Positions 5,973 through 61,342 of a stretch of 64,000 nucleotides of DNA are shown one piece after another; position 1 is the stretch's first letter; every line of letters starts with the position of its first letter. A model generated the notes under the pieces. It ran no database searches. It was given only the letters and a program-made list of their open reading frames with translations, and was not told the origin of the DNA. The stretch covers positions 28,196-92,195 of the forward strand of contig CACZEK010000009.1 in NCBI GenBank assembly GCA_902780135.1, written 5' to 3'. Position numbers and translations under genes: made by a program. The stretch is from an uncultured bacterium (GTDB taxonomy: Bacteria > Verrucomicrobiota > Lentisphaeria > Victivallales > UBA1829).

Positions 5973-6008
5973 GCTGACCTCTTTTCCCATTATTTACAAT
6001 ACAGAAAT

Positions 6009-6037: not shown

Positions 6038-6045
6038 GCATCGTT

Positions 6046-6073
6046 TTGAATTTCCACGGGATGATGCTATATT
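6046..6073 (+). promoter_or_regulatory. Promoter of the DUF362/ferredoxin gene
   Basis: -35 TTGAAT (6046-6051), 16-bp spacer, -10 TATATT (6068-6073), about 40 bp upstream of the start codon. Confidence 0.7.
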
Positions 6074-6114
6074 AAGATTTTCCGGAAAAGCACGCAAAAC
6101 CAGGAATCCATCCC

Positions 6115-37586: not shown

Positions 37587-37642
37587 CATCCCCGGAGATG
37601 ACCGGCTGCTTACGGGAGAACGTCAACAGCGGAGGCGGAACA

Positions 37643-38440: not shown

Positions 38441-38441
38441 A

Positions 38442-39866
38442 ATGATGAAGGCCCTCATTCTCTGCCCGACGCGCGGGATCGCCTGGGCGAAGCGGTTTTT
38501 CCCGAACCATCCGGTCTACCTGCTTCCGTTCGCGAACAAGCCCGCGATCGAGTTTGCCCTGGACTATTGCTTCCTGTGCGGGATCCGGGATGTCCGGATC
38601 GTATCCGACGAAGAATCGGAGGTCCTGCGTGCGCAATACCGCAACGGCGAGATCCTGAGCATGAACCTCGGCTTCGGAAGCGTTGGCGCAATCCGGTCGC
38701 TCAACCGGGTCATCCAGCAGAACAAGGAGTTCTGCAGGGACTGCGACCTGCTGGTCTTCTCCGGGCTCTTCCTGCCCGAGTACGACAAACGGCATCCTCT
38801 CACGCTGAGCATCGGAGCGAACGAGATCAAAGGCTGCGCATTCGGCAACGGCGAAAGCGCCTGGTATCTGATCGGACGCGGCCGGCTGAACGATCTGCCG
38901 TCCGGCTGGAACGGATTCCACGACGGGCTGCCGGTCACGGGGACGCCGGTCGCGGGCATTCAGGATTATTACCGGCTCAACATGCAGCTGGCAGGCGGCG
39001 ACATCGAGAAATACAACCCTCCCGGGTTCAGCGAAGGGAAAAACAGTTTCGTGGGGCGCAACGTCCAGATACCGGGATCGGCCCGCGTCAGCCCCCCTGT
39101 CATCCTCGGAAACGGAATCCGGTTCGGACACGGGATCCACGCCGGCCCGAACATCATCGTGGGCGACAACTGCGTCATCGACAACGGGACGACCATCCGG
39201 GACACGATCGTGATGGGGAACACCTATATCGGGCGCAACCTGGAAATCAGAGGGAAAATATGCTGGGAGAACGGCATCATCGACCCGGAAACGGAAACAG
39301 CCATCAGCATCTCCAACCAGGCGATCGTCTCCGCAATGGAGCCGGACGAGTACGAAAGAAGCCCGTTCCACCAGAGATTTCTGGCATTCCTTCTGCTCCT
39401 GATCCAAACGCTGCCCTACGCCCTGCTGAGGCCGTTTCTGGAGTTCCATGCCACCCTGGCGGAGTGCCTGACGGGACAAGGGAAAAAACACGTCATGGCG
39501 CTGCACGGATATGTTCTGCCACGGGAAAGCCTTGCCGGACGCCTGTTCCGCAGGCTGACCCTGAACAAATATCATTTGCTGCCGTATGCGGCAGCCGGGA
39601 AAATGCGCCTGGTCGGGAACTGTCTTCTGGAGGCAACCGAGCACAACGAACGGTTCATCCGGGATCTGCCCGGTTACGCGCCCGGCGTTTTTTCCTACAG
39701 CGAATACCTTTGCCACGAAAACGAACCCTATCAGCTTGAACTCGACGAGCAGTATTATGCCTATGCCATGAACTGCTGGTTCAATATAAAGATTTTAATG
39801 GGGATCCTGCGGCGCAACTTGAGCTCGAAAAGCCGCGGCCTGCAGCAGAGAGGAGCAATGGAATGA
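38442..39866 (+). CDS. Nucleotidyltransferase-like protein with beta-helix and a phosphoglycosyl-transferase-like tail
   Basis: 474 aa. Residues 1-180 resemble a sugar nucleotidyltransferase ('MKALILCPTRG', 'PFANKPAIEFAL', 'CGIRDVRIVSD') but lack a clear G-x-G-x-R loop. Residues 200-290 form a left-handed beta-helix of hexapeptides ('ILGNGIRFGHGIHAGPNIIV'). Residues 310-335 are a membrane segment. Residues 378-462 read like the C-terminal half of a sugar transferase ('GKMRLVGNCLL', 'LPGYAPGVFSYSEY', 'YAYAMNCWFNIKILMGIL') without its catalytic DE pair. It starts 1 bp after the real PGT stop and overlaps the next gene by 4 bp (ATGA). Confidence 0.7.
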   Translation: MMKALILCPTRGIAWAKRFFPNHPVYLLPFANKPAIEFALDYCFLCGIRDVRIVSDEESEVLRAQYRNGEILSMNLGFGSVGAIRSLNRVIQQNKEFCRDCDLLVFSGLFLPEYDKRHPLTLSIGANEIKGCAFGNGESAWYLIGRGRLNDLPSGWNGFHDGLPVTGTPVAGIQDYYRLNMQLAGGDIEKYNPPGFSEGKNSFVGRNVQIPGSARVSPPVILGNGIRFGHGIHAGPNIIVGDNCVIDNGTTIRDTIVMGNTYIGRNLEIRGKICWENGIIDPETETAISISNQAIVSAMEPDEYERSPFHQRFLAFLLLLIQTLPYALLRPFLEFHATLAECLTGQGKKHVMALHGYVLPRESLAGRLFRRLTLNKYHLLPYAAAGKMRLVGNCLLEATEHNERFIRDLPGYAPGVFSYSEYLCHENEPYQLELDEQYYAYAMNCWFNIKILMGILRRNLSSKSRGLQQRGAME

Positions 39867-41953
39867 TCTTATCGGACAACGGAGATCCCGCCGTTCAGAA
39901 CGAATCCGTTTTTCTCACACCGGAAGCGGAACAGGAAAAAACAGAACCCGCCATTATGCAGTTTATCCGCCTTTTCCGGCGGGATTTCTGGTGCTGGATC
40001 ATTGCGATACAGAAGCTGTGGTGGCTTTTCGCGATCTTCCCCCTTCTGTTCGCCTGCATCATGTTCTTCATCAGGACGATGACGACGACCAACGTGTACG
40101 TGTCAAACTGCGGACTGATCCGTCAGGAGATCAAGGACAACCGTGCCGGGATCCTGCCTCCGGGATATGTGAACGTGCAAAGGTCCATCATCATGAACCT
40201 GTTCAAGAGCCGCGCGGTTCTGGAGGAGACCATCAAACGCCTGAGCCTGCCTTATACCGCCGAACAGCTTTACAACAACATCTCCGTCAAAGCGGAAAAG
40301 AACTCCGACTACTATTTCGTCTCCGCCTCTTCGAAGGACCCGACGATTTCCGCCGCTCTCGCCAATACGCTTGCCGACGTATTCATCGAGGAATATAAAA
40401 AGCTGATCCGGAGAAACCTGGAAGACCTGAACGACAGCTACGTCAGAACCCAGAACGAACTGGAAAAGCAGCTGGCCGAGCAGGACGAGCGGATGAAAAA
40501 GCTGTGCACCGAAAACAACCTGACGACCATTGAGCAGGATATCGCGTTCAACAACCAGAGACTGCTCCAGGTCGAAGACCAGCTGACGCGCGCATCGTCC
40601 ACCCTCGACTCCGCGAGACAGGCATTGTATGAGCTTCAGGGCGAACTCGCCAACACGCCGGAAGAAGTCGTGACGCACAGAGAGAAAAGCACCGTGGCGG
40701 ACGACGAGCTTATAAAAGCGGAGAACCAGTTGCGCGCCTACGAGCAGATGTACGCAAAAAGCAATCCGCTCCTGATCCAGCAGAGGGATCTGGTGAAGAA
40801 GCTGAGAGAGGAGCTGGAAAAGTCGAAGCAGGCCGAGGATGCCGGGGAAGGCGATGCCGACAAAAAAATCGTCGTCTCCCGCAACCCGGCATATACGCAG
40901 ATCCTGGTGGCAATCTCCGCAAAGAGAGCCGAAATCACGACGCTGACGAACGACATCAAGCTCAACAACGACAACGCGGTCCAGCTGCGTGCGCGGCGCG
41001 AGCTCCTGGCATCCGTCCATCCGGTCCTCCGCCAGCTCGAAGCCGACATCTCGCAGTCCAAAGACCAGATCAACAACACAAAAGCGCAGATCGCCACGAT
41101 CCACAGCTTCCTCGATCGGTCTTTCTCCGACATCTCCATTCAGGAGCTCGCAAAAGCGCCGACTGTCCCGCTGGGACGCAAACGCGGCATCTGGGGCATC
41201 ATCGGATTCGTCCTCGGCACGTTCATGGCCCTTTCCATCATCCTCGGATGCGAACTGTTCAACCTGACCATCCGTTCCAACGTGGACATTGAACAGGCTC
41301 TCCGGCTCAAAACGCTGGGAATGATCCCGATGCTGAAACAGGCGTATCGCGCCGACTACTACAGCGCGCTCCAGACGATGACCAGCAACGGAAAGCCGTT
41401 CTTCTCCCAGGCTACGCCCGATCACCCGCTGCTGATCGTATTCGCGCCGAACAAACGGTCTGACATGGACGACAAGATCAAAGAGGAATTCTGCGAGACG
41501 CTGAAGATCCGCCTGGGCTGCAAATATGTCGTCATCTCCCCGATTCAGGAGGAGGACATCTCGGCGAAACAGATGCCCCTTCTGATCAACGACTATCTGT
41601 ACCAGTTCACGGACGAAGCGCCAAAACCGGGAAAAGACCACACGGTTTATTTCAAGCTGGATGACCTTTCGTTTATCTCGCCGCTGGCGGACGAACAGAT
41701 CCAGCGGGTCAAAACCGCATACAAATCCATTTCCCTTATCGTATGGGATCTTTTCGAATTCGAGCTGCACAGACAGCTCTTTGCGGAAATCGCCCATAAT
41801 GCCGATCTTACGATCATCCCGATGAAATACGCCCAGACCTCCAAGCTGAGCATTTTCAGGATTCTCCTGTTCCTGAAATCCTTCCACGTCAAAAACATCG
41901 TCGGCTTCCTCTACAACGTCAACAACAAGCATTACAACAAGGTGACATTATGA
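39863..41953 (+). CDS. Wzz-type chain-length/co-polymerase protein with degenerate BY-kinase domain
   Basis: 696 aa. TM1 lies at about 53-72, TM2 at about 440-460, with a periplasmic Wzz domain and long coiled coils between them. The C-terminal 190 residues align in pattern with CpsD/Wzc tyrosine kinases ('PLLIVFAPN', 'ISLIVWDLF', 'NADLTIIPMKYAQTSKL', 'NIVGFLYNVNNKHY') but there is no Walker A GxGKS/T. A Tyr cluster at the C-terminus is missing too. It probably controls polymer length without kinase activity. ATGA overlaps on both sides couple it to its neighbours. Confidence 0.75.
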   Translation: MILSDNGDPAVQNESVFLTPEAEQEKTEPAIMQFIRLFRRDFWCWIIAIQKLWWLFAIFPLLFACIMFFIRTMTTTNVYVSNCGLIRQEIKDNRAGILPPGYVNVQRSIIMNLFKSRAVLEETIKRLSLPYTAEQLYNNISVKAEKNSDYYFVSASSKDPTISAALANTLADVFIEEYKKLIRRNLEDLNDSYVRTQNELEKQLAEQDERMKKLCTENNLTTIEQDIAFNNQRLLQVEDQLTRASSTLDSARQALYELQGELANTPEEVVTHREKSTVADDELIKAENQLRAYEQMYAKSNPLLIQQRDLVKKLREELEKSKQAEDAGEGDADKKIVVSRNPAYTQILVAISAKRAEITTLTNDIKLNNDNAVQLRARRELLASVHPVLRQLEADISQSKDQINNTKAQIATIHSFLDRSFSDISIQELAKAPTVPLGRKRGIWGIIGFVLGTFMALSIILGCELFNLTIRSNVDIEQALRLKTLGMIPMLKQAYRADYYSALQTMTSNGKPFFSQATPDHPLLIVFAPNKRSDMDDKIKEEFCETLKIRLGCKYVVISPIQEEDISAKQMPLLINDYLYQFTDEAPKPGKDHTVYFKLDDLSFISPLADEQIQRVKTAYKSISLIVWDLFEFELHRQLFAEIAHNADLTIIPMKYAQTSKLSIFRILLFLKSFHVKNIVGFLYNVNNKHYNKVTL

Positions 41954-43011
41954 TTTTCAAATCCCATTGGATCCTGCGCTTTTTTCTTCCCGCATTCGTC
42001 CTTGTCGTAACTGCGTGCAATTCCACTCCTTTCGGCGGGATCGCCGTGCCCGGCATGACGTCCGTGCCGCCGAAGGAAGAACTCGATTCCTATGCCATCC
42101 AGGAGGAGCTGAAAGCGCTGCATGTCGTAAACCCGATGCCCTATGAGCTCAAGCCGGGCGACACGTTCCAGCTCTCCATCTACAACCAGCCGAGCCTGAC
42201 AAGCAGCATTCTGATCGCGCCGGACGGAACCGCCAGCCTTCCCCTGGTCGGACTCCTGAAGCTCGCCGGAATGAACATGGAAGATGCCACGAATCTGCTG
42301 GAAAAGAAATATTCCATTTTCCTGAAGTCGCCGATCGTTACCCTGTCTCCCCTGACCACAAGCGGATATTACTTTACGATTGCGGGCCGCGTCGTAAAAC
42401 CGGGCAACTTCACCGTATCCATCGGGCAGACAAAACTGCTTGACGCGATCGCCCTTTCGGGCGGGTTCGTAACAGGAGTGTTCCGCGGCGACACCGTTGA
42501 ACTCGCCGACCTGGACAACGCCTACATCAAACGCAACGGGAAAAAACTTCCGGTGGACTTCAAGAAGCTTGTCTACGAGGGAGACGACCTGCACAACATT
42601 CCGGTTCTGAACGGCGACTATGTTTACATCCCGTCGACCATGCACGGGTACATTATTTTCCTCGGAGAAGTCGGCAGCAACACCTATGTCGGCTTTACCG
42701 AAGGAATGACGCTGCTTCAGGGGTTATCTTACGTGAACGGACTGAGAACGGAAACCTACAACGAGTTCATCCGGGTAATCCGCGGCGGACAGGACAATAC
42801 GGTAGTCTACACCGTCGACGTGGACAAGATCCTGAACGGAAAGATGAAGGACTTCAAGCTTGAGGCGAACGACATCATTTATGTGCCCCAGGACAGCTTC
42901 TCGAAATGGAACCAGCTCATCCGGAAGCTCCTCCCGACCCTGCAGCTTGTCAATCTGCTCGCCGGCCCGTTCGGTTCGACCATTCTCGGTTACTTCAACC
43001 TCTCGAATTGA
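41950..43011 (+). CDS. Wza-like polysaccharide export lipoprotein
   Basis: 353 aa. Signal peptide with lipobox 'VVTAC' (Cys 23). A Poly_export domain ('YELKPGDTFQLSIYNQPSL', 'IAPDGTASLPLVGLLKLAGM') is followed by two SLBB-type domains ('FTIAGRVVKPGNFTVSIGQT', 'IIFLGEVGSNTYVGFTEGMTL'). It would form the outer-membrane export channel. It overlaps the upstream gene by 4 bp. The C-terminus ends in a hydrophobic stretch rather than a clear amphipathic helix. Confidence 0.85.
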   Translation: MIFKSHWILRFFLPAFVLVVTACNSTPFGGIAVPGMTSVPPKEELDSYAIQEELKALHVVNPMPYELKPGDTFQLSIYNQPSLTSSILIAPDGTASLPLVGLLKLAGMNMEDATNLLEKKYSIFLKSPIVTLSPLTTSGYYFTIAGRVVKPGNFTVSIGQTKLLDAIALSGGFVTGVFRGDTVELADLDNAYIKRNGKKLPVDFKKLVYEGDDLHNIPVLNGDYVYIPSTMHGYIIFLGEVGSNTYVGFTEGMTLLQGLSYVNGLRTETYNEFIRVIRGGQDNTVVYTVDVDKILNGKMKDFKLEANDIIYVPQDSFSKWNQLIRKLLPTLQLVNLLAGPFGSTILGYFNLSN

Positions 43012-43050
43012 TTCCGTTCGCTTCGGAAACGCCAAAAAGGATTCATACAG

Positions 43051-44664
43051 TTGATAAAGATCATTGAACAACTGGTCCTTTTTCTGTATTTGCTGCCTTT
43101 TCTGACGGCATTATGCTGTATGTTTCCGAATTTCCGGCATTTCTGTTTCGCCGGAATGATCTATTTCACCAGCAACGAATACTCCATAACGGCGGGCTAC
43201 ATGAAATGGACCGGAACGGCATTCGGGTATACGTTCACAGCCGTGTACTTTTTTGCCATTCCTCTGCTGCTGAGCATGCTGCTCTCCTCGCGGTACAAAG
43301 TTAGGCTCTTTCCGCCCGGTTCCTTTTTCTATTTGCTATACTATTTTGCGATTCTGCTTTCCGGCGTAAATGCCATCCACATGCAGCAGTGGGGGTTTGA
43401 AGTTTATAAGATGTTCTGGATGTACACCGTCTTCCTGGCGGCGTTCAACTATATGAACAACAGCAAGAATCTAATCCTTTTTACCTATATGGTATGCGGC
43501 ATCCTCTCCTTCCTTTTCATTTACGGGCTCTATCTGAAATACAGGATGGGGCTCTTTCAGTTGCATGTGACATTTCCACATCAGAACTCATTCTGCCTGT
43601 ATTTGGAGCTCTTCGGGCTTCTTGCCCTCGGCGTCCTGATGAACGAAAACATCAGCAATAAACTGTTTTTGCTTTCCCTGTTCGCGTTTGTCGGGTCGCT
43701 CGTTTTGATCATTCTCACATACTCCCGCGGCGGTCTTGTCATTTTTTTCAGCGGCATTGCCGTCGTCTGCGCCTTTTCGATCCTGGTCAACGGTTTTTCC
43801 ATCAGGCGTCTGCTCCTTATGCTGATCGGTTTCGTTGTCGTGCTGAGCATCATAGGCTATGCTTTGCCGCGCATCATCCAGCGTTTCGAAAATGCTTCGC
43901 CCTCATCCAAGCTTACACGCATTTATCTCGCCATTGCGGCCAAGCGAATCGCGAACGATTATAAGCTGGGGGTCGGAGCGAATAATTTCTCAGAGTATTC
44001 CGGTTATGCTCGCGACTATGCCCGCGAACTGTATGCCAGTCCGGGATACCGCAATGAAACCGGAAGAGGCGGAATTGTCGAGACGATCTACCTGCTGGTT
44101 GCGGCGGAATGCGGCTGGTGGGGACTTGGCACTCTGATCCTGTGGTTTCTTTACTATTACTTTTCCTCCCTCATCAGTATATTCGTCCTCAGAAAAAAGC
44201 CATGTTCCGGCCTCATGATCGGGGTTTTCGGCGGACTGACCTGCAATTACTTTCACTCCACGCTGGAATGGGTCCTGAAACAACCCAACAACTTTTCCGG
44301 CCTGATGGTCACTTATGCGCTCATCGCCGTCGTTGCCGTCAACCGGAAGAATATCAAGGCGGCTTACCAGAGGAGCCTGGAAAGGGAAAAGTCGGCGAAA
44401 AAGATTTTCGCGCCCTCTCTCGCGCCCGCCCCGGCCAGTACGCCTGCCCCGGCCAGTACGCCCGCCCCGGCCAGTTCGCCCGCCCCGGCCAGTTCGCCTG
44501 CCCCGGAAGAATCACCATCCCCGGAAGAATCGCCCGTCCCGGCCAGTACGCCCGCCCCGGAAGAATCGCCCATCCCAGCGGAATCGCCCGTCCCGGCGGA
44601 ATTGGCAGAAAGCGCAGGCGGATCCTCCGCTCCATCTGAAACAACGGGTCTTCCCAACCTGTAG
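43051..44664 (+). CDS. O-antigen polymerase/ligase-type membrane protein with Pro-rich tail
   Basis: 537 aa, TTG start after AAAAAGGA. About eleven hydrophobic segments over residues 1-430, with a large periplasmic loop that includes 'LGVGANNFSEYSGYARDYARE', typical of the Wzy/WaaL (O-antigen ligase) family. It would polymerise repeat units or ligate the polymer. After residue 450 comes a tail of about 80 residues of repeated PAPAS/PEES units encoded by 15-bp tandem repeats. The gene is visibly lower in G+C than its neighbours. Confidence 0.8.
   Translation: MIKIIEQLVLFLYLLPFLTALCCMFPNFRHFCFAGMIYFTSNEYSITAGYMKWTGTAFGYTFTAVYFFAIPLLLSMLLSSRYKVRLFPPGSFFYLLYYFAILLSGVNAIHMQQWGFEVYKMFWMYTVFLAAFNYMNNSKNLILFTYMVCGILSFLFIYGLYLKYRMGLFQLHVTFPHQNSFCLYLELFGLLALGVLMNENISNKLFLLSLFAFVGSLVLIILTYSRGGLVIFFSGIAVVCAFSILVNGFSIRRLLLMLIGFVVVLSIIGYALPRIIQRFENASPSSKLTRIYLAIAAKRIANDYKLGVGANNFSEYSGYARDYARELYASPGYRNETGRGGIVETIYLLVAAECGWWGLGTLILWFLYYYFSSLISIFVLRKKPCSGLMIGVFGGLTCNYFHSTLEWVLKQPNNFSGLMVTYALIAVVAVNRKNIKAAYQRSLEREKSAKKIFAPSLAPAPASTPAPASTPAPASSPAPASSPAPEESPSPEESPVPASTPAPEESPIPAESPVPAELAESAGGSSAPSETTGLPNL
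44420..44600 (+). repeat. 15-bp tandem repeats in the 3' end of the polymerase gene
   Basis: Variants of GCCCGCCCCGGCCAGTA-type units, encoding [ST]-P-[AV]-P-[AE]-[SE]. Units are in frame, so copy-number changes would lengthen or shorten the tail without a frameshift. Confidence 0.8.
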
Positions 44665-50832: not shown

Positions 50833-50916
50833 GCGCATATAATCCGAACAAATACCGGAAAAAGAACTGAAACAAGCACGAAAACTGCTGAAGCAGTTGA
50901 TACAAGGAGGTTGCAT

Positions 50917-51270
50917 ATGAAGAAGAAAAGACAAGAGGACTGGACGGACGAGGAAAACGCCGCAAATATCGCAGAAATACTGGAACGTGCGAAAAAAGGC
51001 ATCCGAAGTCAGGAAGAGCTGGAGCGTGACGCATACTTCACTGACCCGGCAAATGCGGAAGAGGTCAACGCCATGTTCGAGCGTTTCCGCCTCAGAGAAG
51101 AGTTGTACAAAGCCCGCCGGGAAGCAAAACTGACCCAAAAGGAACTGGCGCGGCGGATGGGAACAAGCCAGACCTATATCGCCGCGGTCGAACACGGCAA
51201 AAAGAACATCACGTTCTCCACGCTCGCGCGCTATGCCCGCGCCTGCGGAAAGAAAGTCGCACTCATTTGA
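50917..51270 (+). CDS. XRE-family HTH protein (antitoxin-like, 117 aa)
   Basis: The C-terminal 60 residues are a Cro/C1-type HTH ('REAKLTQKELARRMGTSQTYIAAVEHGKKNITFSTLARYARAC', in part). The N-terminal half is charged and helical, as in HigA/MqsA-like antitoxins. ATG 50917 follows AAGGAGGT, a strong ribosome site. No RelE/HigB toxin is next; a DUF2442 protein follows after 49 bp. Confidence 0.8.
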   Translation: MKKKRQEDWTDEENAANIAEILERAKKGIRSQEELERDAYFTDPANAEEVNAMFERFRLREELYKARREAKLTQKELARRMGTSQTYIAAVEHGKKNITFSTLARYARACGKKVALI

Positions 51271-51319
51271 GCACAGGACTGGTTCCGGCAGCTCCCCCCG
51301 CTGGAATAAGGAGGCGGAC

Positions 51320-51631
51320 ATGTTCCACAAACTGAATCAGATCAAAGCATTGCCCGGCTGCAGGCTCTGGGCGAAGTTCATGGACGGCAGGGAAGTCATC
51401 TATGATGTTTCCAGACTGACGGCGGTCAATCCCGTTTTCGGCGACCTTGTACGGAATCCGGATCTTTTCGCTCAGGTCCGCATTGATCCGGGCGGATACG
51501 GGATTAGCTGGAACGACGATCTTGACCTGGAAGCGGAGGAACTGTGGAAAAACGGAGATGAGGTCAAAGCACCGTTTGAGCTTACCCCAGTTTCCGACTC
51601 TGTCGCACAGGTCCGGCGACCGACAATATAA
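51320..51631 (+). CDS. DUF2442 protein (103 aa)
   Basis: 'RLWAKFMDGREVIYDVSRL', 'LFAQVRIDPGGYGISWNDDLDLEAEELW' (in part) match DUF2442, a small family often found beside XRE regulators or toxin-antitoxin genes. GGAGG precedes the ATG. The role is unknown. Confidence 0.8.
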   Translation: MFHKLNQIKALPGCRLWAKFMDGREVIYDVSRLTAVNPVFGDLVRNPDLFAQVRIDPGGYGISWNDDLDLEAEELWKNGDEVKAPFELTPVSDSVAQVRRPTI

Positions 51632-52491: not shown

Positions 52492-53487
52492 TCAGGCGTG
52501 GTGCATCACCAGGTAGACGGTGTACGCGATATATGATGCCAGGAGCAGCGCGCCCTGAACGCGGTTGAGACGTTTGCCGAACATCCCGAAGAGGAACAGC
52601 GCGCCGGACGTGCCGAGCATGACCGCGAAATCCAGCCCGCGGATCGACTGTCCAGCCAGCGGCGAGATCACCGGCACGATGCCGAGGATGCAGAAGACGT
52701 TGAAGATGTTCGAGCCCACGATGTTGCCGATGGCGATGTCGTTTTCGCCCTTCAGCGCCGCCACGAACGACGTGGCGAGCTCCGGCAGGCTGGTCCCGAC
52801 CGCGACGATCGTGAGCCCGGTCACGGCGTCGCTGATGCCGAGCGCGCCGGCGAACGCCACGGCGGCGGTCAGGAACGACTTCGCGCCGAGCACCAGCATG
52901 ACGACGCCTCCCGCGACCGCGAGCAAAGCCAGCGCCACGCCGAGCGGCTTTTCATTGCTTTCTTCCGCCCCGGTCCCGGCCTCCCTCGCGGCCTCCCGTT
53001 CCGCCGCCTTCTTCGCCTCCTGTTTCTTCGACAGGATCACGTTCAGCGCGGTGTATGTCAGGATGCACAGGAAGAAGAACGCGCCTTCCCAGCGGTTGAT
53101 GCCGTGGCTCAGGAAATAAAACCCGGTCAGCGCGAGCACGGCGAACAGCATCACGGGCAGGTCGAATTTCTTCAGGTTCGCGTGGAACGGCATCGGGCGC
53201 AGCACGGCGCACAATCCGAGGATCAGCGCCACGTTGCAGATGTTCGACCCGACCACGTTGCCAAGGCTGATGTCCGCCGAACCGCGCAGCGCCGAGTCGA
53301 TGCTCACGACCAGCTCCGGCGCGCTCGTCGCGAACGCCGCGAGCGTGAGGCCGATCACGAGGCGGGAGATGCGCGCCTTCAGCGCCAGCGAAACGCCGCC
53401 CCGGACCAGAAACTCCGCCCCGTAGTACAGCAGCGCCACCCCGAGGACGGCAAGTCCGAGATTGCGGAAAAGATCAAGCATCGGCAT
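52492..53487 (-). CDS. Calcium/sodium antiporter (CaCA family, YrbG-like)
   Basis: 331 aa with ten TM segments. Two inverted alpha-repeats are clear: 'AFATSAPELVVS' with 'GNVVGSNICNVALILG', and 'AVGTSLPELATS' with 'GNIVGSNIFNVFCILG'. It would export Ca2+ against Na+. The cytoplasmic loop between the halves is rich in Lys/Glu/Ala. ATG 53487 and 53481 are both possible. A minus-strand promoter lies at 53573-53600. Confidence 0.92.
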   Translation of the reverse strand: MPMLDLFRNLGLAVLGVALLYYGAEFLVRGGVSLALKARISRLVIGLTLAAFATSAPELVVSIDSALRGSADISLGNVVGSNICNVALILGLCAVLRPMPFHANLKKFDLPVMLFAVLALTGFYFLSHGINRWEGAFFFLCILTYTALNVILSKKQEAKKAAEREAAREAGTGAEESNEKPLGVALALLAVAGGVVMLVLGAKSFLTAAVAFAGALGISDAVTGLTIVAVGTSLPELATSFVAALKGENDIAIGNIVGSNIFNVFCILGIVPVISPLAGQSIRGLDFAVMLGTSGALFLFGMFGKRLNRVQGALLLASYIAYTVYLVMHHA

Positions 53488-53572
53488 GGTAAAACAAGCT
53501 CCCGAAAAAAGATGAAACAGGTTGAGGTTCCCGCTCCGGACAGCCGGGCGCCGCGGGAAACTTCGACCTCTT

Positions 53573-54432: not shown

Positions 54433-54533
54433 CAAGAGGAACCGCATCGCTGCGCCGGATTCAAACAGAGAAGATAACGATTTATAATATTCTTTCTGTT
54501 TTTACGATTGAGAATACCGGCTTTTATTCAACG

Positions 54534-54578
54534 GACGGAAATGACGGAACAATCGTCAAATCCGTCCGTCATTCCGTC
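54534..54578. repeat. Inverted repeat at the 3' side of the YhcG operon
   Basis: GACGGAAATGACGGA (54534-54548) against TCCGTCATTCCGTC (54565-54578), one bulged base. It lies between two convergent genes and could end transcription from either side. Confidence 0.5.
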
Positions 54579-54620: not shown

Positions 54621-55205
54621 TTATTCCGGTTGGGCGACCGTTTGTGAATCGTCCTGCCCGGCGGTTGCTTCATACGGAAATTTTATCTGTTCCCGATGCT
54701 GCCCGGAAAGAAATTTATTCACCCCTTTTTCGGTCATGGTTATGACGCGTCCGTCGGAATACAGGATGTTGATCCCGAATATGCTGTGTCCACGGGGGCA
54801 TATGAGGACCGGGGTGTCGTTCACGCGCCGGGTCTCGAAAAGCCGGACGAACTCCTCGGCGGACGTGGAAAAGACAAAATACGGTTCCCCGTGCGCCGGA
54901 CAACGGAGCATGCTCTCATCCAGTTTCCCGCCGAGCATCGCATCCCGGAGCAGATCGGAGACCGTCAAGCCCGCCAGAGCCGCCGGGTCCTTTTCCTTCG
55001 CCGTCGCAAACAACTGCTGTCCCGCCTGGGTCAGACGGTTGGAACACTCGACGGACCGGGCTTTTGCTTTCCTGTGGAGCAGCATCCAGAGATGATGCGG
55101 CGCCATCGGGATAACCAGTTTGATCAGAAGCAATGCCAGGATGACGAACAGAAAAACCCTTAAAAAAGAGATTGTGTTTCCGCCCTTGTTCCCTTCGTGA
55201 CTCAT
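54621..55205 (-). CDS. Membrane-anchored pseudopilin-like paralogue C (194 aa)
   Basis: TM at about 14-34, then 'RSVECSNRLTQAGQQLFATAKEKDP', 'LTVSDLLRDAML', 'MLRCPAHGEPYFVFS' and 'VLICPRGHSIFGINILYSDGRV'. The order matches the other two paralogues (55202-55792, 56850-57467). The C-(S/T)-x-x-L segment after a TM and the H-x10-DG block recall DUF1559/H-X9-DG pseudopilins, but there is no prepilin cleavage site. Last gene of the operon; it overlaps the previous gene by 4 bp (ATGA). Confidence 0.7.
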   Translation of the reverse strand: MSHEGNKGGNTISFLRVFLFVILALLLIKLVIPMAPHHLWMLLHRKAKARSVECSNRLTQAGQQLFATAKEKDPAALAGLTVSDLLRDAMLGGKLDESMLRCPAHGEPYFVFSTSAEEFVRLFETRRVNDTPVLICPRGHSIFGINILYSDGRVITMTEKGVNKFLSGQHREQIKFPYEATAGQDDSQTVAQPE

Positions 55206-55792
55206 TTGCCCTCCTCGGGTCGTTTTTCAAACACGGGCCGGAGAGACTGCCCCTCCATGAGCGCTTCGGCCTCTTTTTTGGACAAAGCCTTGACCGTTCC
55301 GTCGGAAAAGAGGACGGGCGTTCCGGGCTTCTCGTGAACGCCGGGATGGCACATGGCGACCGGGACCGGGGGCTGAGCGGATTCCTCGTAAAGACCGATA
55401 TACGCGGAGACGGGGAATATCAGGTATGCCTGACGGTCTTTCGAGCAACTCAAATTCAGTTCCGCCATTCTCCGGCTTTCGCCTTCATACTGGATCAGGT
55501 CGTCCCGGATCAGATCGCACACCGACCAGTTTTCCGGTTTTTCCCTTTCCTTATCCACCTTCGTAAGCCAGTATATTTGCTTCTCGAGCTGAATGAGTTT
55601 TGAGGAGCAATCCGTATAATAACCTTTTTCCGAAGGCTGTCCCAAAGGCGGCATAAACAGCAACCCCAAAACGAGGCAGACCAGTCCGAGCCCGAGAGAA
55701 AAAAGCACGCCCTTAATGGCATTGGCAGCGATTATTTCCTCGTTCGTTCTGCTGACTTCAGGCTTTTTTTCGGGTCCTTCCGGCATCGTCAT
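55202..55792 (-). CDS. Membrane-anchored pseudopilin-like paralogue B (196 aa)
   Basis: TM at about 27-48 after a cytoplasmic start. Then 'YYTDCSSKLIQLEKQI', 'WSVCDLIRDDLI', 'NLSCSKDRQAYLIFPVSAYIGLY' (in part) and 'AMCHPGVHEKPGTPVLFSDGTV', 'LSKKEAEALMEG'. The order equals that of its two paralogues in the operon. It overlaps yhcG at its start and paralogue C at its end, both by ATGA. G+C content is visibly lower than in the flanking genes. Confidence 0.7.
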   Translation of the reverse strand: MTMPEGPEKKPEVSRTNEEIIAANAIKGVLFSLGLGLVCLVLGLLFMPPLGQPSEKGYYTDCSSKLIQLEKQIYWLTKVDKEREKPENWSVCDLIRDDLIQYEGESRRMAELNLSCSKDRQAYLIFPVSAYIGLYEESAQPPVPVAMCHPGVHEKPGTPVLFSDGTVKALSKKEAEALMEGQSLRPVFEKRPEEGK

Positions 55793-56853
55793 TTCCCCTC
55801 GTTTTGCTGAAGGCGGAAGATTTCCTTCTGCATTTCGATCTCCCGCCTGAGTTCGTCCTTCGTCGGCAGATAGGTCAGATACTTGGAGGCGAAAAGCTGT
55901 TTGCTGTCATGCAGGACCGAATACCGGGCGATATCCTCGCTGGTTTCGGAACAAAGCAGGATCCCGATGGTCGGGTTGTCGCCTTCGGAGCGTTTCCTTT
56001 CGTCATACATCCGTACATACATGTCCATCTGGCCCACGTCCTGATGGGTGATCCGCGAGGTCTTCAGGTCGATCAGCACGAAGCATTTCAGGATGTAATT
56101 GTAGAAAACAAGGTCGATGAAGAAATCCCCGGCGTCCGTGGCGATGTGCTGCTGCCGTGCGACAAACGCATAGCCCTTGCCGAGTTCCATCAGGAATTTC
56201 TGCAAATGCGTGATGATGCTTTCTTCGAGTTTCGTTTCCGTGAAACCGGTGTTCGGGGCAAGCCCCAGGAATTCGGCGACCACCGGATTCTTGATGAACT
56301 CCAGTTTGTCCGCCTGCATCGGAGCCGTAATCGCCTTCATCTCCTCCACGACCGGAGCTTTGTCCCGCGAAGCCAGCAGACGGTGGTAATACTGCGAACT
56401 GATGTTGCGGTCGAGCGTGCGGACGCTCCATGATTCCCTCGACGCCTCGTTCAGATACCAGAGACGGGCGGTTTCGTCGGGAACACGCAACAGCATACGG
56501 AAATGCGTCCATGTCAGATTTGGCACTCGCGAGTGCCAAATCTTCTCCTGTTGCGGAAAATACAGGTAGAATTGACGGTAATCACGAAGTTTGCGCGCCT
56601 CAAATCCTTTTCCGAATTCCGCAGTCAGGACCGCCGAAAGCTCATTCAGTAGTCCGGTCCCGTACGCCGCGCGTTTGTTCCCGTGCTGTTCCTCCTCGAC
56701 GATGCGCTGTCCGATCTTCCAGTAGGTGTCGATCATCGCCGCATTGACCGAGGCATACGCCACGGCACGTCCGCGGGCGATGATTTCACGAAGGTCTTTC
56801 AATAAGTTCACAGAGACGGCGTTTTGTATTTCCTTTTTCTTTTCCATCGTCAT
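55789..56853 (-). CDS. YhcG-family (DUF1016) PD-(D/E)XK nuclease
   Basis: 354 aa. The N-terminal DUF1016_N domain has 'ARGRAVAYASVNAAMIDTYWKIGQRIVEEE' (in part), 'LRDYRQFYLYFPQ', 'LTWTHFRMLLRV' and 'WSVRTLDRNISSQYYHRLL'. The C-terminal nuclease domain has 'ELGKGYAFVARQQHI', 'DFFIDLVFYNYILKCFVLIDLK' (in part, the D...xDLK catalytic set), and 'IGILLCSE'. Such proteins occur near restriction systems and mobile elements. It lies between paralogues A and B with ATGA overlaps on both sides. A 28-bp perfect palindrome lies inside it at 56516-56543. Confidence 0.88.
   Translation of the reverse strand: MTMEKKKEIQNAVSVNLLKDLREIIARGRAVAYASVNAAMIDTYWKIGQRIVEEEQHGNKRAAYGTGLLNELSAVLTAEFGKGFEARKLRDYRQFYLYFPQQEKIWHSRVPNLTWTHFRMLLRVPDETARLWYLNEASRESWSVRTLDRNISSQYYHRLLASRDKAPVVEEMKAITAPMQADKLEFIKNPVVAEFLGLAPNTGFTETKLEESIITHLQKFLMELGKGYAFVARQQHIATDAGDFFIDLVFYNYILKCFVLIDLKTSRITHQDVGQMDMYVRMYDERKRSEGDNPTIGILLCSETSEDIARYSVLHDSKQLFASKYLTYLPTKDELRREIEMQKEIFRLQQNEGK
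56516..56543. repeat. 28-bp perfect palindrome inside yhcG
   Basis: AGATTTGGCACTCG followed by its exact reverse complement. It encodes part of 'EKIWHSRVPNLT' in the N-terminal domain. Confidence 0.9.
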
Positions 56854-57467
56854 GGCGTTTGCTCCTCTTCCGGTTTTGTTTCAAAGACTATTTCCATCGG
56901 CACGGGCGAATACTTCGAAACAAGTTTTTCGGCTTCCTCCATGCTGATATTTCGGACGCTCCTGTCCGAATACAGCACGCGCGCCGTGAAGTGATATTTC
57001 TTCCCGGTGAACGAATCCCGCGCCATGAACAGCTTCACCATGAAATCGGTCTCCATGTGGGAATCCGGACAATCCATGATAATCGGGATCCGGTTGTGCG
57101 GATCATCCGGCAGAAGCAGGACCGAGGCGGGCACGGGAAACACCAGATAAGGGCGCTTGCTGTGCGGACAGCGGAGCTCTTTTCCGGTGATGAATCCCCG
57201 GCGCAGGGCCTCCCGGATCAGATCGGCGACTGTCATTTCCGGCGTGATCTCTGGCAGGGGCTCCTTGACCCCCTGCCAGAATTCCGGATCCTCATCGGGC
57301 CGCGCCATGTTGTACAGGACTCTGCCGATGTGGCCGCCGAGCCTCGCCGTGCATTCCGTGCAGTAGATCCGCGCATGGACCGCGCGATGCTGATACGGTT
57401 CGATAATAAAGCAGCCACCGACGAACCCGAGCAGGAACACCAGCAGGATGAGTAAAACGTTTTTCAT
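56850..57467 (-). CDS. Membrane-anchored pseudopilin-like paralogue A (205 aa)
   Basis: 'MKNVLLILLVFLLGFVGGC' is a TM or lipoprotein signal. Then 'IYCTECTARLGGHIGRVLY', 'MTVADLIREALRRGFI', 'ELRCPHSKRPYLVFPVPASV', 'IIMDCPDSH' and 'ARVLYSDRSVRNISMEEAEKLV'. The same modules in the same order occur in paralogues B and C. ATG 57467 follows GGGAGG and overlaps the stop of the BRO-like ORF (ATGA). Its stop overlaps the yhcG start. Confidence 0.7.
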   Translation of the reverse strand: MKNVLLILLVFLLGFVGGCFIIEPYQHRAVHARIYCTECTARLGGHIGRVLYNMARPDEDPEFWQGVKEPLPEITPEMTVADLIREALRRGFITGKELRCPHSKRPYLVFPVPASVLLLPDDPHNRIPIIMDCPDSHMETDFMVKLFMARDSFTGKKYHFTARVLYSDRSVRNISMEEAEKLVSKYSPVPMEIVFETKPEEEQTP

Positions 57468-57628
57468 GACGGACCTCCCGCGACGTCGGTCTTGTAAAGT
57501 TTGCCGTCGGCTCCTGGCATTTTCAGTTGGTGACAATTTGTCACCAACTGATTTCCCTCTTCAATCATACGCTGTTTGAGCTTGCGCCAATAGTTTGAGG
57601 CATGGCGGGCGTCCGGCTGATCGGTCAT
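57464..57628 (-). CDS. Truncated BRO-N/antirepressor-like ORF (54 aa)
   Basis: It starts MTDQPDARHASNYWRKLKQR and contains 'EEGNQLVTNCHQLKMPGADGK' (in part) and 'KTDVA'. From memory this matches the first 50 residues of BRO-N domain proteins found in anaerobes and phages ('xYWxxLKxRLxxEGNQxVTxCxQLK...DGK...TD'). The usual continuation is missing: the frame ends after 54 codons, exactly at the next gene's ATG. AAGGA lies 10 bases before the start. It may be a domesticated remnant or a leader peptide. Confidence 0.55.
   Translation of the reverse strand: MTDQPDARHASNYWRKLKQRMIEEGNQLVTNCHQLKMPGADGKLYKTDVAGGPS
57523..57551. repeat. 29-nt palindrome inside the BRO-like ORF
   Basis: TCAGTTGGTGACAA-T-TTGTCACCAACTGA, 14-bp perfect arms around one base. 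It encodes 'NQLVTNCHQLK'. It lies 56 bp upstream of paralogue A and could act as an operator or a leader hairpin. Confidence 0.85.
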
Positions 57629-57683: not shown

Positions 57684-59768
57684 TTACTCTTCTTCGGCGC
57701 GGGAGAGGAGTTCTTCGCGGAAGGCTTTCGTGTAGAAGGCTCCGCAGTGGCCGCCGTTGGAGAACCAGGTGATGCGGTCGCCGAGGGTCTCGTCCAGGAA
57801 CTTGCGGTCGGCATCGTTGATGAGGATGTCGTCCCAGGAATGGATCATGCGGACGGACTTGTTGTTTTTGAGGGTGGACTCGACGGCGCGAAGGCCGGAT
57901 TCGGCGGCGAGTTTGTCGAGGTCCTTGATATCCTTGCCCATCTGTGGGAAGAGGAAGCGGGTGATGTACTCCTTGAACCCGACGCCGCCGATCTCGCGGT
58001 AGAAGTCCTCGCGGTTGAACATGGTGCAGGGGGCCTCGATGCCGGGGAGCGGGTACTTGCCCTCGCGCTGGGTCTTCTCCAGCACTTCGGCGAGGCAGCC
58101 CTGGATCGTGAACGCGACGAAGAACTTGGCGGTGGCGTCGTCGACGAGCGGCGGCCGGGAGAAGGTCTCGGGCTTTTCGGGATCGAACGGCGGGACCACG
58201 CGGTCGGTCGAAACGTACTGGAGTCCGGCTCCGGTGGAGATCTTTTCGACGGCCTCGTCGAAGGTCCAGTCCTTCGTGGCGAGGGCGTAGTCGTCGACGG
58301 TCTTCAGGGTGTGGAGCAGGTCGGCGGGCGGGTTGATGGGGAGATAACGGCTGATGCCGAGGGTGTTTTCCTTTTCCTCCATGGCGGCGATATGGCAGAG
58401 CTCGATCGCGCCCATGGACCAGCCGGTGAGGACGATCCGCGGGTCTTTGATCTTGCCGTCCTCGCGGAGGTCGGCGAGGATCTTCTGGAGCACGATGCGC
58501 ATGTTGGCGGCCTCGTGCGGGGTGTATCCGGGCAGCTTGCCGTCGGTGCCGACCATGAAACGCCAGTTGAAGCCGTTGTCGACGAGGACGACGCTGTATC
58601 CGGCGTTGTAGAACTCCTCGGCGGTGGCGAGCGCGGTCTGTCCGTTGTAGATGCTGCCGATGCCGGGGATGATGATGGCGAGCTTTTCAGGCGGGATTTC
58701 GTTTTCGTCCTTCGGCTTCGGCGCCTCGAAGAAGCCGTATCTGAGGCGGGAGCGTTCGGGGTCGATGTCCGCCTTGATCTTGCGCGTGTGGATCTTGTCC
58801 TCGAAGTCGGAGTTGAAGATGGAGAGGCGGGCGTACCACCAGTCGCGGTCCTTCTGCGGCATGAAATAGATGGCGCGGAGGGTGTCGGCGACGGGTCCGA
58901 GCGAATGGTAGCCTTCGAGGACCTTGCGGCGGCCGTGGAGGGTTTCGGGCATGGAGGTGCCCTGGTCGGGCGGGAGCTCGGGCAGGCGGTCGTGATAGAC
59001 GTCCTTCGCGTAATTGTAGTACCACTTGTCGAGCTGGAGTTCGCGGTTCAGGAGCTGCATCATCACGTAGGTGCGGTACGGGTCGGCGGAGCCCTTGATC
59101 ACGTTCACGAACTGCGGATGCATCGCCACGACGTTGTTGACGTACGCCCAGCTGGAGTAGGGCAGGTAGGTGCGGATGTCCAGCAGATAGTCGAAGATGC
59201 TGCCGACGTCGTCGCGGACGTTGATGTGCTTGCTGCCGGGGATGATGAGGCGGCAGCCGGGACCGATGCCCCAGGTGGCGAACATGCCTCCGAAGTTGGC
59301 GTCGGTCTTGTAGAGGTGGAACCAGTATTCGGCGGGGTCGAAGAGGCCCGCGATGCCGATGGTGGAGTTCAGCAGGAAACGCCCGGTCTCGACGCCCGCG
59401 CACTCCCATTGCGCGCTGCCGAGCGAGGAGATCGCGCGGCCGGGGAAGGCGAGGTTGTGGCAGGCGTTTTCGATGCACTGGATCACGGGGCGCGGCAGGA
59501 TGCTGGTCCAGATCCAGCCGATCGGACGCGCGATGTAGTCCATGATCACGCTGTCCACCTCGAACATGCTCCGGTTGAAGCCTTCGAGCGGGTCGTGCCC
59601 GGAAAGCTCGCCGATCAGGCGCGGCGTCGACCAGGGGCCGGCGGGTTCCGCGAGCGCCGTTTCCTCGGCGGGCGGTTCCTCCGGGGCGGAGCTCCGGCAT
59701 GCGCCCAGAGCGAGCGCGAAAACGAGTATGAATGCGGCCAGAAGACGGTTCCAGGATTTCGATCTCAT
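57684..59768 (-). CDS. MlaA (VacJ)-like lipoprotein fused to an alpha/beta hydrolase
   Basis: 694 aa. Signal peptide with lipobox 'LGAC' (Cys 24). Residues about 57-265 are MlaA-like ('DPLEGFNRSMFEVDSVIMDYI', 'FLLNSTIGIAGLFDPAEYW', 'WGIGPGCRLIIPG', in parts), the outer-membrane phospholipid channel of the Mla pathway. Residues about 360-690 are an alpha/beta hydrolase: oxyanion-side 'AIIIPGIGS', nucleophile elbow 'GWSMG' near 448, late 'HSWDDILI' (Asp) and 'NGGHCGAF' (His). This suggests lipid removal coupled to hydrolysis. ATG 59768 follows GGAAAGGAG. The PurF-like gene lies 74 bp upstream. Confidence 0.8.
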   Translation of the reverse strand: MRSKSWNRLLAAFILVFALALGACRSSAPEEPPAEETALAEPAGPWSTPRLIGELSGHDPLEGFNRSMFEVDSVIMDYIARPIGWIWTSILPRPVIQCIENACHNLAFPGRAISSLGSAQWECAGVETGRFLLNSTIGIAGLFDPAEYWFHLYKTDANFGGMFATWGIGPGCRLIIPGSKHINVRDDVGSIFDYLLDIRTYLPYSSWAYVNNVVAMHPQFVNVIKGSADPYRTYVMMQLLNRELQLDKWYYNYAKDVYHDRLPELPPDQGTSMPETLHGRRKVLEGYHSLGPVADTLRAIYFMPQKDRDWWYARLSIFNSDFEDKIHTRKIKADIDPERSRLRYGFFEAPKPKDENEIPPEKLAIIIPGIGSIYNGQTALATAEEFYNAGYSVVLVDNGFNWRFMVGTDGKLPGYTPHEAANMRIVLQKILADLREDGKIKDPRIVLTGWSMGAIELCHIAAMEEKENTLGISRYLPINPPADLLHTLKTVDDYALATKDWTFDEAVEKISTGAGLQYVSTDRVVPPFDPEKPETFSRPPLVDDATAKFFVAFTIQGCLAEVLEKTQREGKYPLPGIEAPCTMFNREDFYREIGGVGFKEYITRFLFPQMGKDIKDLDKLAAESGLRAVESTLKNNKSVRMIHSWDDILINDADRKFLDETLGDRITWFSNGGHCGAFYTKAFREELLSRAEEE

Positions 59769-59842: not shown

Positions 59843-61342
59843 TTATGCTTTTTTCGGTTCGGACTTGGATTCGGCGTCGTCGCCGTCGTGGGCGGGGCAG
59901 GCGCAGCCGATCCACTTGGCGCAGCCGGTCGGGTCGCAGCCGTCGAAGCAGAACGTGCAGAGCTTGCACTTCGGGAGCCCGATCGCCTCGACGAGCTGGT
60001 CGATGGTCTGGTATTTCAGGGTCGTGAGCCCGAGTTTCTGGCGGATCTTCTCGACCATGCGCTCGTAGCGCGGCGTGCCGGCGGTGATGTATTCGCGCAG
60101 GATCTCCGGCGTGGGCTCGCCGCCCTCGAGCTCGGCGATGATGCGGCGCGCGGCGAGGTCCATCACGGACCGCGAGCGCGAGAAATTGAGGAAGAGGCAG
60201 GGGAACGCGAGCGGCGGGGAGGCGGAGCGCAGATGGACTTCCTTCGCGCCTCGTTCGAGCAGACGTCGCGTGACGTCGCGGAACTGCGTGCCGCGGACGA
60301 TGGAGTCGTCGCAGAAGAGCAGGCGTTTTCCCTCGATCTGGTCCTGCACGGGGAGCAGCTTCATCTTCGCGATGAGGTTGCGGTGGGACTGCACCTGCGG
60401 CATGAAGCTGCGGAGCCAGGTGGGCGTGTACTTGACGAGGGCGCGCAGGTAGGGGCGGCCCTTCTTGTTGGAGTAGCCGATGGCGTGGGCGACGCCGGAG
60501 TCGGGCACGCCGCAGACGGAATCGACCTCGACGCCGTCGCGGGCGGCGATGCGCGCGCCGTTCTCGTAGCGCACGGTCTCGGTGTTGCGGCCCTCGTAGT
60601 CTGAGGAGGGATATCCGAAGTAGACCCAGAGGAACGAGCAGATCTGCATGGTTTCCTCGGGCGGCTTGAGCTGCGTGGCGGATTCGGCGTCGACCAGCAC
60701 GATCTCGGCGGGTCCGAGGTCGCGGACGAATTCGTAGTCGAGGTTCGGATAGGCGGAGGTCTCCATGGAGACGGCCATCGCGCCGGGCTTCTTCGCGAGG
60801 GAGACGGGTGTGCGGCCGTAGCGGTCGCGGGCGGCGTAGATCTTTCCGTCCGCCATCACGAGCATGGAGCAGGAGCCCTTGATGCGGTGCATGGCGTAGG
60901 CGATGCCGTCCTCGATGGTCTTCTGCGTGTTGATGAGCGAGGCGACGACTTCGGTCGGGTTGTGCTCGCCGTTGCTGTGTTCGGCGAAGTGGATGTGGTG
61001 CTCCTCGATCGCCTGCCGGGTCAGTTCCTCGATGTTGTTGAGCTTGCCGACGGTCACGATGCTGTACATGCCGAGGTGGGACGCGATCAGCAGCGGCTGG
61101 TCGTCCATGTCGCTGATGATGCCGATGCCGCACTTCGCGCCGCGGAACATCTCAAGCTCGGGGCCGAACTTGGACCGGAACATCTCGTTGGAGATATCGT
61201 GGATGGAACGGATGATGGAACCGTAGGGATTGGTGACGGCCATGCCGCCGCGGACCGTACCCAGATGCGAATGGTAATCGACCCCGTAGAAGAGGTCGTC
61301 CACGCAGTCACCGTTTGAGACAACGCCGAAAAAACCGCCCAT
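59843..61342 (-). CDS. PurF-like amidophosphoribosyltransferase family protein without the catalytic Cys
   Basis: 499 aa. The Ntn-type N-domain begins MGGFFGV, whereas PurF needs Cys directly after Met; 'GVDYHSHLGTVRGGMAV' and 'KGSCSMLVMADGKIYAARDRYGRTP' (in part) otherwise fit. The PRTase domain has the PRPP loop 'LLFCDDSIVRGTQ' near 337. The C-terminus carries seven Cys in 'CKLCTFCFDGCDPTGC' and 'CAC', which could bind Fe-S or zinc. Similar Cys-less forms exist in other anaerobes. The glutaminase reaction should be lost; the actual role is unknown. Confidence 0.8.
   Translation of the reverse strand: MGGFFGVVSNGDCVDDLFYGVDYHSHLGTVRGGMAVTNPYGSIIRSIHDISNEMFRSKFGPELEMFRGAKCGIGIISDMDDQPLLIASHLGMYSIVTVGKLNNIEELTRQAIEEHHIHFAEHSNGEHNPTEVVASLINTQKTIEDGIAYAMHRIKGSCSMLVMADGKIYAARDRYGRTPVSLAKKPGAMAVSMETSAYPNLDYEFVRDLGPAEIVLVDAESATQLKPPEETMQICSFLWVYFGYPSSDYEGRNTETVRYENGARIAARDGVEVDSVCGVPDSGVAHAIGYSNKKGRPYLRALVKYTPTWLRSFMPQVQSHRNLIAKMKLLPVQDQIEGKRLLFCDDSIVRGTQFRDVTRRLLERGAKEVHLRSASPPLAFPCLFLNFSRSRSVMDLAARRIIAELEGGEPTPEILREYITAGTPRYERMVEKIRQKLGLTTLKYQTIDQLVEAIGLPKCKLCTFCFDGCDPTGCAKWIGCACPAHDGDDAESKSEPKKA

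Follow-up and report, generated by a model that had tools for sequence, protein, structure and literature searches.

What is the gene of a predicted nuclease doing inside a run of genes for small membrane proteins? The question is raised by a 64-kb stretch of DNA from an uncultured bacterium of the order Victivallales (hereafter the window, G000:C9:28196-92195; contig CACZEK010000009.1, in a genome of 2.84 Mb in 29 contigs), where yhcG lies on the minus strand among three paralogous genes, A, B and C, preceded by a short open reading frame (ORF) that resembles Bro-type genes. A preliminary description, drawn up from the window itself, had seen in this block a transferred unit, possibly for defence or conflict, in which the membrane proteins sense or localize and YhcG cuts nucleic acid. 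Comparison across the genus, which is one of rumen bacteria, and across the order leads us to a different answer: the block is probably one version of a hypervariable array that follows purF-mlaA and combines anchored pilin-like proteins with optional predicted phage-defence genes, here YhcG. The block and the two genes upstream of it are listed below.

57464-57628, minus strand: BRO-like ORF of 54 amino acids (aa), first cistron; what is left of a Bro-N/DinD-like gene after truncation at both ends
56850-57467, minus strand: paralogue A, 205 aa, membrane-anchored pilin-like protein; overlaps the BRO-like remnant by 4 bp (ATGA)
55789-56853, minus strand: yhcG, 354 aa; DUF1016 N-terminal domain and PD-(D/E)XK nuclease domain
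55202-55792, minus strand: paralogue B, 196 aa, membrane-anchored pilin-like protein
54621-55205, minus strand: paralogue C, 194 aa, membrane-anchored pilin-like protein; last cistron
57684-59627, minus strand: MlaA lipoprotein-domain gene (MlaA domain, 125 bits), the upstream flank
59843-61342, minus strand: upstream amidophosphoribosyltransferase gene, which we take to be purF (the domain matched is GATase_7); our yardstick of species divergence

YhcG as an Optional Cargo of the Array

Within the window's genus, 11 of 13 genomes gave strong matches to the paralogue family (E values of 2.4e-87 to 1.2e-15); none of the 124 other genomes of the order did, the best match there being 2.4e-8. In all 11 genomes purF-mlaA lies upstream of the array, whose genes are linked by short overlaps or small gaps and vary among species in number and order. 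The contents are given here with G numbers for the genomes, the length in aa after each Bro-type gene, and "par" for other paralogues.

Window (G000): Bro54-A-yhcG-B-C
G046: par-Bro287-A-B-par-par
G044: Bro54-A-B-par
G052: Bro90-A-B-yhcG-par
G051: par-Bro90-A-par-par-par
G054: par-(21-residue yhcG match within a 49-aa ORF)-par x5
G053 and G050: yhcG-par-par
G049: RhuM-par-par-gap-par
G047: par-par
G048: one par

Because orthologous yhcG occurs in 4 of the 11 arrays and at three positions, namely at the head of the array in G050 and G053, between A and B in the window, and between B and the paralogue after it in G052, YhcG is an optional cargo of the array and not an obligate partner. An intact yhcG was not seen in the other seven (G044, G046, G047, G048, G049, G051 and G054), the contigs of G047 and G048 stopping 1.7 and 0.9 kb past the last paralogue. 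One array junction has closely similar sequence on either side in G044 and G052, with yhcG present there in G052 and absent in G044. YhcG-family matches number 14 in the genus: the 4 orthologues, all within arrays, and 10 others that are 23-58% identical and never lie on array contigs. A fixed sensor-plus-nuclease unit is not supported by these counts (seven arrays without an intact copy, three positions, 10 further YhcG genes off the array contigs), and we rejected a YhcG-paralogue unit as a general rule, given that only 4 of the 11 genus arrays hold yhcG beside the paralogues. The paralogues do occur without YhcG, though mostly in the same context, which counts in part against the preliminary description.

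The preliminary description was right about the tight packing of the block, in which five minus-strand ORFs meet at four junctions, each an exact 4-bp ATGA overlap. Over all arrays, 22 of 35 joins are exact 4-bp overlaps, a count that leans upward because start codons were chosen by a script that favoured those close to the preceding stop; one join value (G044, 337) comes from a wrong start. As for the remaining genomes, G043 has an mlaA-type gene (53%) and no array, and the contig of G045 stops inside a Bro gene 3' of its mlaA-type gene.

Bro-Type and RhuM Genes at the Same Site

YhcG shares the site with other cargo. The first cistron of the block, termed BRO-like from the outset, is truly similar to Bro-type genes, although it is just a 54-aa fragment cut at both ends. 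It has no Pfam or NCBIfam match above cut-off, Bro-N (PF02498) included; it matches PADLOC PDC-S13 at 56 bits, over profile positions 39-83 of 286 only, as well as PDC-S04, and is 80% identical over 50 aa to a full-length Bro-type gene in the G046 array. The latter encodes 287 aa; it scores 34.4 bits for Bro-N, above the cut-off of 25.6, and 433.5 bits for PDC-S13, and its C-terminal part resembles DinD at a score below cut-off. Aligned to it, the window copy is without the first ~35 residues and everything past approximately residue 87, and it retains a ribosome-binding-like stretch (judged by eye) and the frame into the ATGA join. The gene thus exists in three forms: 54 aa in the window and G044; 90 aa, with the same 3' end, in G052 and G051; and 287 aa in G046.

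In the G049 array, a 347-aa RhuM gene (L044 6480-7523, minus strand; G049:C28) separates mlaA from the first paralogue, where G050 and G053 have yhcG; it matches PF13310 at 344.5 bits and PDC-S05 at 520.7 bits. Full-length cargo therefore comprises yhcG (PDC-S02) in G000, G050, G052 and G053, the Bro-type gene in G046 and RhuM in G049. Since YhcG, Bro-type and RhuM proteins are all PADLOC single-gene candidates, 6 of the 11 arrays hold a full-length defence candidate (PDC-S02, PDC-S13 or PDC-S05), a raw count to be set against the abundance of the Bro-type gene, matched at E 1e-20 in 57 of the 137 genomes of the order. Such genes are common elsewhere too: the figures that PMC13356809 gives for its rumen set are 2,715 PDC-S02, 3,275 PDC-S05 and 1,628 PDC-S04 loci. 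PADLOC found no multi-gene system with two or more components in the block, and the paralogues matched none of its models; a scan of plus-strand ORFs of at least 70 aa revealed no other clear cargo from the mlaA-type gene to the end of the array. A 138-aa membrane ORF is linked by ATGA to the G047 array.

An Intact YhcG and Its Relatives

As the preliminary description held, yhcG is an intact gene of its PD-(D/E)XK family. Both domains score above cut-off across residues 21-338 (PF17761, 149.3 bits against 32.8; PF06250, 176.2 bits against 32.5), and the predicted nuclease residues E210, D247, D262-L-K264 and Q275 are present. The positions of E210, D247 and D262-L-K264 are conserved across 23 aligned rows, two of which have Glu instead of D262. 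The family has been described (PMC1189080) as a predicted PD-(D/E)XK nuclease with the motif E-D-E(I/L/V)K and no obvious conserved neighbours. Of 32 PADLOC models that match the window protein, the best is the single-gene candidate PDC-S02 (468.5 bits); among the 25 listed, 24 are PDC-S02 and one is a CRISPR-associated PD_DExK model. An antiphage role for YhcG, as a member of a PADLOC candidate family, is plausible. The gene is under constraint, with a ratio of nonsynonymous to synonymous divergence (dN/dS) of 0.10-0.25 in diverged pairs.

YhcG is matched at E 1e-50 in 33 of the 137 genomes. In a tree restricted to sequences of at least 240 aa, which leaves out pieces from G007, G104, G081, G090 and G097, the array rows cluster (94/84), as do two rows that lie beside pilin genes (96/92); both clusters sit within a supported 12-row set (100/98) that also has YhcG without nearby pilins and in which the branching order is unresolved. 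The pieces outside the tree include the contig-end piece of G104 (84% over 111 residues) and those of G007 (47-69%).

To see whether YhcG keeps company with pilins, we can turn to 46 places outside the arrays, distributed over 43 regions: 44 of the 45 outside-array matches (G008:C498 was omitted) and two YhcG-like stretches in the G001 region, a set that by its limit of E 1e-50 holds no distant YhcG genes and of which several places are located at the ends of contigs. No excess of canonical pilin genes was seen within 1.5 kb: the strict motif was found at 0 places versus 1.9 expected and the loose motif at 2. YhcG as a family is thus not tied to pilins. The two loose-motif cases are G083 and G084 (YhcG 71-72% identical); save for these, a general YhcG-pilin association was rejected. 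The upstream side of YhcG in G092 (79%) and of the G104 piece is unseen because both begin at contig ends.

Close neighbourhood of yhcG and a Bro-like gene was noted elsewhere in the order, within 1.5 kb in G061 (L122 1846-4247, G061:C363) and G001 (L136, G001:C59). In G006 (L129 755-8284, G006:C121), both lie inside an apparent type I restriction-modification cluster, judged by ORFs.

Likely Exchange and Mosaicism

Two diverged species have likely exchanged yhcG, together with the adjoining paralogue, recently. Over 1,829 bp (5118-6946 in G050 locus coordinates), G050 and G053 differ by just 3 mismatches; this shared tract spans from 143 bp 5' of yhcG to 13 bp 3' of the next paralogue and sits in a 9.9-kb alignment of 91.2% identity overall; the gene directly past it is far more diverged (68-93% per 100 bp). 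In this pair, synonymous divergence (dS) is 0.004 for yhcG versus 0.205 for purF, while in other pairs yhcG dS is 0.36-0.70 versus 0.17-0.23 for purF (window versus G050, 0.69 versus 0.18). The earlier idea of a transferred, defence-type unit is in part sustained by this tract and by the candidate defence genes of the arrays.

Paralogue A is a mosaic. Between the copies of G052 and of an IMG/VR contig (L111), 1 of 435 sites differs, followed by 5 of 99 and by 41 of 91, and in several pairs near-identical stretches abut stretches with ~40% differences, a pattern expected from homologous recombination among diverged alleles. Paralogues A and B have dN/dS values of 0.29-0.60, compared with 0.04-0.13 for purF.

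A Family of Pilin-Like Proteins without the Peptidase Site

The three small membrane proteins are indeed homologous, with one module order. BLASTP E values are 8e-12 (A-B), 1e-14 (B-C) and 1e-11 (A-C), and the invariant residues follow in the order Cys after the anchor, D-L-x-R, Cys, Y-x-x-F, His, S-D. They constitute an unnamed protein family, strong in one genus. The family likely derives from type IV pilins and has no prepilin-peptidase site; the profile and fold matches, weak as they are, are consistent with such a descent. The family profile matches a canonical prepilin of the same genome at E 6.7e-6 (hhalign, 92.7% and 90.5%, over 44-50 columns), and in the structure model, with a helix at 2-55, type IVb pili are the top structural matches, although Foldseek returned nothing significant with both paralogue models. 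The alignments used for structure had 73 and 69 rows, of which 3 were the window proteins and the others came from the best 120 of 218 proteins, these in turn having been obtained by scoring the 7,997 candidates with most words in common.

The prepilin-peptidase motif (G/A-F-x-x-x-E and relaxed forms) is missing in 130 of 131 family rows (not de-duplicated), window copies included; in the single row with the motif, it falls in a leader that is out of frame, the ORF being over-long. Curated pilin models did not match the family. For TIGR04294 (H-X9-DG), none of 73 members matched at E 0.1, and one G046 member gave 12.3 bits against a cut-off of 19; by eye, the window paralogues have an H...SDG or SDR stretch resembling H-X9-DG. 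Most copies are open and keep the invariant residues. A stop codon falls inside 5 paralogue matches, in some possibly 5' of the start codon.

In this genus the strict prepilin DNA motif was matched 5-8 times per genome, versus 50-235 times in many sister-genus genomes, and a reversed control gave none among the rows listed. In G052, G044 and G050, one more distant member of the paralogue family stands alone at a second place on the chromosome (L049, L050 and L051), and G047 has additional members on two other contigs.

Base Composition and Surroundings of the Block

Two further features lie on the 3' side of the array.

54530-54570, minus strand: stem-loop 3' of the last cistron, inside a 143-nt stretch
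52492-53490, minus strand: Na/Ca exchanger (PF01699), the downstream flank

Consistently with the preliminary description, guanine-plus-cytosine (G+C) content is lower in the block (0.549) than in the window (0.611), and at third positions it is 0.59-0.73 in the five block ORFs versus 0.91 and 0.90 for two genes of the flanks. When windows of the block's length are slid along the stretch, 41 of 610 are as low as the block or lower; they overlap the block itself or fall in a second low region at ~39-43 kb, because of which the low value is not unique. The 3-kb windows of lowest G+C, with values down to 0.51, belong to a polysaccharide-type cluster at 37598-44664, which by eye has a sugar transferase as well as Wzz-like and export-like proteins.

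The 143-nt stretch with the stem-loop folds better than its own 200 shuffles (z, -4.6). Tail sequence related to the stem-loop region was found 3' of the arrays in G046, G044 and G052, and the exact 47-base tail pattern only at the window's own loci. Promoter and terminator consensus scans showed no clear excess over shuffles (3 versus 1.6 and 6 versus 4.7). The Na/Ca exchanger lies 3' of the array in the window and, among the regions compared, otherwise only in G046. In G044, a serpin gene (PF00079, 316 bits) is found 3' of the array on the opposite strand (L038 7861-9090), and the same protein start recurs at the G050 locus. The C-terminal part of the MlaA-type gene has a weak alpha/beta-hydrolase match below cut-off. 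Farther off, a helix-turn-helix gene (PF01381) and an overlapping DUF2442 gene form a toxin-antitoxin-like or regulatory pair at 50911-51631 on the plus strand.

Apparent Pilin-Switch Loci in Sister Genera

The nearest yhcG relatives in the sister family lie among 5'-truncated pilin copies, some of them beside a large serine recombinase, and these loci appear from their sequence to be pilin switches. In G081 (L174 7158-10949, G081:C6), a full prepilin gene and an inverted, 5'-truncated pilin copy flank a large serine recombinase (Resolvase and Recombinase domains); the arms, 175 nt and 93% complementary, start within the codons of the pilin N-terminal helix, and a YhcG-like gene piece lies 3' of the full copy. 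In G083 (L171 11734-18002, G083:C89), four site copies, one full and three truncated, have the recombinase, a Fic gene and yhcG between them. In G084 (L172 290-3868, G084:C191), three truncated copies over two contigs are accompanied by an Abi_2 gene and yhcG, and no large serine recombinase was matched at E 1e-40. The truncated copies start at the same codons and are inverted or direct relative to the full prepilin gene where one is visible.

The large serine recombinase gave 36 matches in 26 of the 137 genomes and, at E 1e-40, none in the 13 genomes of the window's genus. Of 30 recombinase loci examined, 19 have a flanking pilin core that lacks the preceding FTLIE stretch, 4 of these also with a full copy; both are raw counts. 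Further apparent pilin-switch loci were seen in G035 (L208) and G034 (L192). A strict term search of the literature for serine recombinase and pilin switching surfaced just one review.

It is tempting, if only tentatively, to regard the pilin-type arrays of Victivallales as a new class of defence-cargo locus, in which an anchored-pilin array takes up YhcG, Bro-type and RhuM genes, sister genera carry YhcG, Fic and Abi in pilin-switch loci with serine recombinases, and surface variation and defence would be reshuffled jointly.

Weighing the Explanations

Could YhcG and the pilin-like protein next to it nevertheless work as a pair, the anchor sensing or tethering at the inner membrane and YhcG cutting the entering phage DNA? 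A paralogue follows yhcG with a 4-bp overlap in all four arrays that have the gene, the tract shared by G050 and G053 covers just yhcG and that paralogue with 143 bp before and 13 bp after, and the nearest complete YhcG relatives outside the genus with upstream DNA (those of G083 and G084) adjoin pilin modules. However, the paralogue after yhcG differs in type among the window, G052, and G050/G053; unrelated RhuM and Bro-type genes occupy a similar place in other arrays; in seven arrays no intact yhcG was seen; and the 46 places elsewhere show no excess of canonical pilin genes. A functional pair therefore seems rather unlikely to us. The same turnover might be read as neutral, with duplicated pilin-derived genes under relaxed constraint forming a tolerant site that gains and loses passengers and has no selected role. 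The decay stages of the Bro gene (287, 90 and 54 aa), the yhcG remnant of G054, the raised dN/dS of paralogues A and B, and the stop codons inside five paralogue matches, some perhaps before the start codon, fit such a site. Most copies are, however, open with the same invariant residues, dN/dS stays below 1, yhcG is clearly constrained, and the likely exchange between species argues for selection, so that we hold a purely neutral array to be unlikely.

A remnant of a prophage or plasmid is very improbable, and we rejected it on the fixed flank and the searches of phage and plasmid records. YhcG relatives do occur in 14 of 50,697 phage records and 18 of 72,556 plasmid records, and one IMG/VR contig of 98.5 kb carries two paralogue genes. 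The chromosomal flank is constant in 11 of 11 genomes, though; paralogue A is unmatched in phage records; and among the 8 plasmid matches listed of 18, yhcG is covered in part, with at most 12% of the block. On the IMG/VR contig, possibly host DNA, the two genes (L111 4324-5660) lie beside a Sel1-repeat protein and not mlaA, and the neighbours in the 10 kb examined are that protein and an ankyrin-like ORF (by eye). No tRNA was found in the 64-kb window, and all serine recombinases of the genus are off the array contigs, tyrosine integrases not having been searched for.

We therefore return to the hypervariable array of anchored pilin-like proteins with optional cargo. The membrane proteins would stay permanently anchored in the inner membrane by their long N-terminal pilin helix, since the prepilin-peptidase site is missing, and would likely hold a small head outside the cytoplasm without entering a pilus. 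New alleles and cargo likely enter through homologous recombination between similar gene ends, with the ATGA joins allowing immediate translation from the shared message. With moderate likelihood, YhcG would act as a cytoplasmic nuclease on invading DNA and would not depend on the particular pilin-like proteins beside it. The rapid turnover may reflect an arms race, most likely against phages or competitors; this last step is a guess from the pattern.

If the account holds, an unnamed, fast-changing, pilin-derived family and candidate phage-defence genes are shuffled jointly among species at this site. Its versions that have or lack yhcG would offer a natural experiment on a common nuclease family of open role, and pilin gene clusters would suggest themselves as places to seek defence genes in the PVC group.

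Comparison with Known Systems

The YhcG family is already known, and the array is a variant of a variable cargo site; we found no description of a pilin-like array with YhcG in open-licence papers. The window protein resembles other members of its family (PF06250/COG4804, PDC-S02) in having both domains nearly full length and the nuclease residues intact, but its gene lies inside a pilin-like array and is optional there. For Bro-N/DinD-like genes (PDC-S13), the full-length G046 gene with its Bro-N domain is the counterpart, whereas the window has a 54-aa remnant in frame with an ATGA join. The RhuM family (PF13310, PDC-S05) is represented by the full-length member of G049 and by none in the window array.

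Like the type IV pilins and DUF1559-type prepilins of the order, the paralogues have a long N-terminal helix, then a conserved Cys and a small head; unlike them, they lack a prepilin-peptidase site and a match to a curated model, and their strong matches are confined to one genus. Pilin-type genes with mosaic alleles recall loci of pilin antigenic or phase variation, such as pilS of Neisseria, a pilin antigenic-variation locus. Another such case is the pilin inversion of Moraxella bovis, cited in PMC11868660. The window array differs from both kinds, with no 5'-truncated cassettes seen there and no pilin-switch recombinase in the genus at E 1e-40. The array is also akin to a general class of loci, the defence-island hotspots that lie between conserved genes, in its fixed chromosomal site, its variable cargo and the likely exchange between relatives. 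It stands apart from them in its constant part, which consists of diversified membrane proteins instead of an integrase or a tRNA site.

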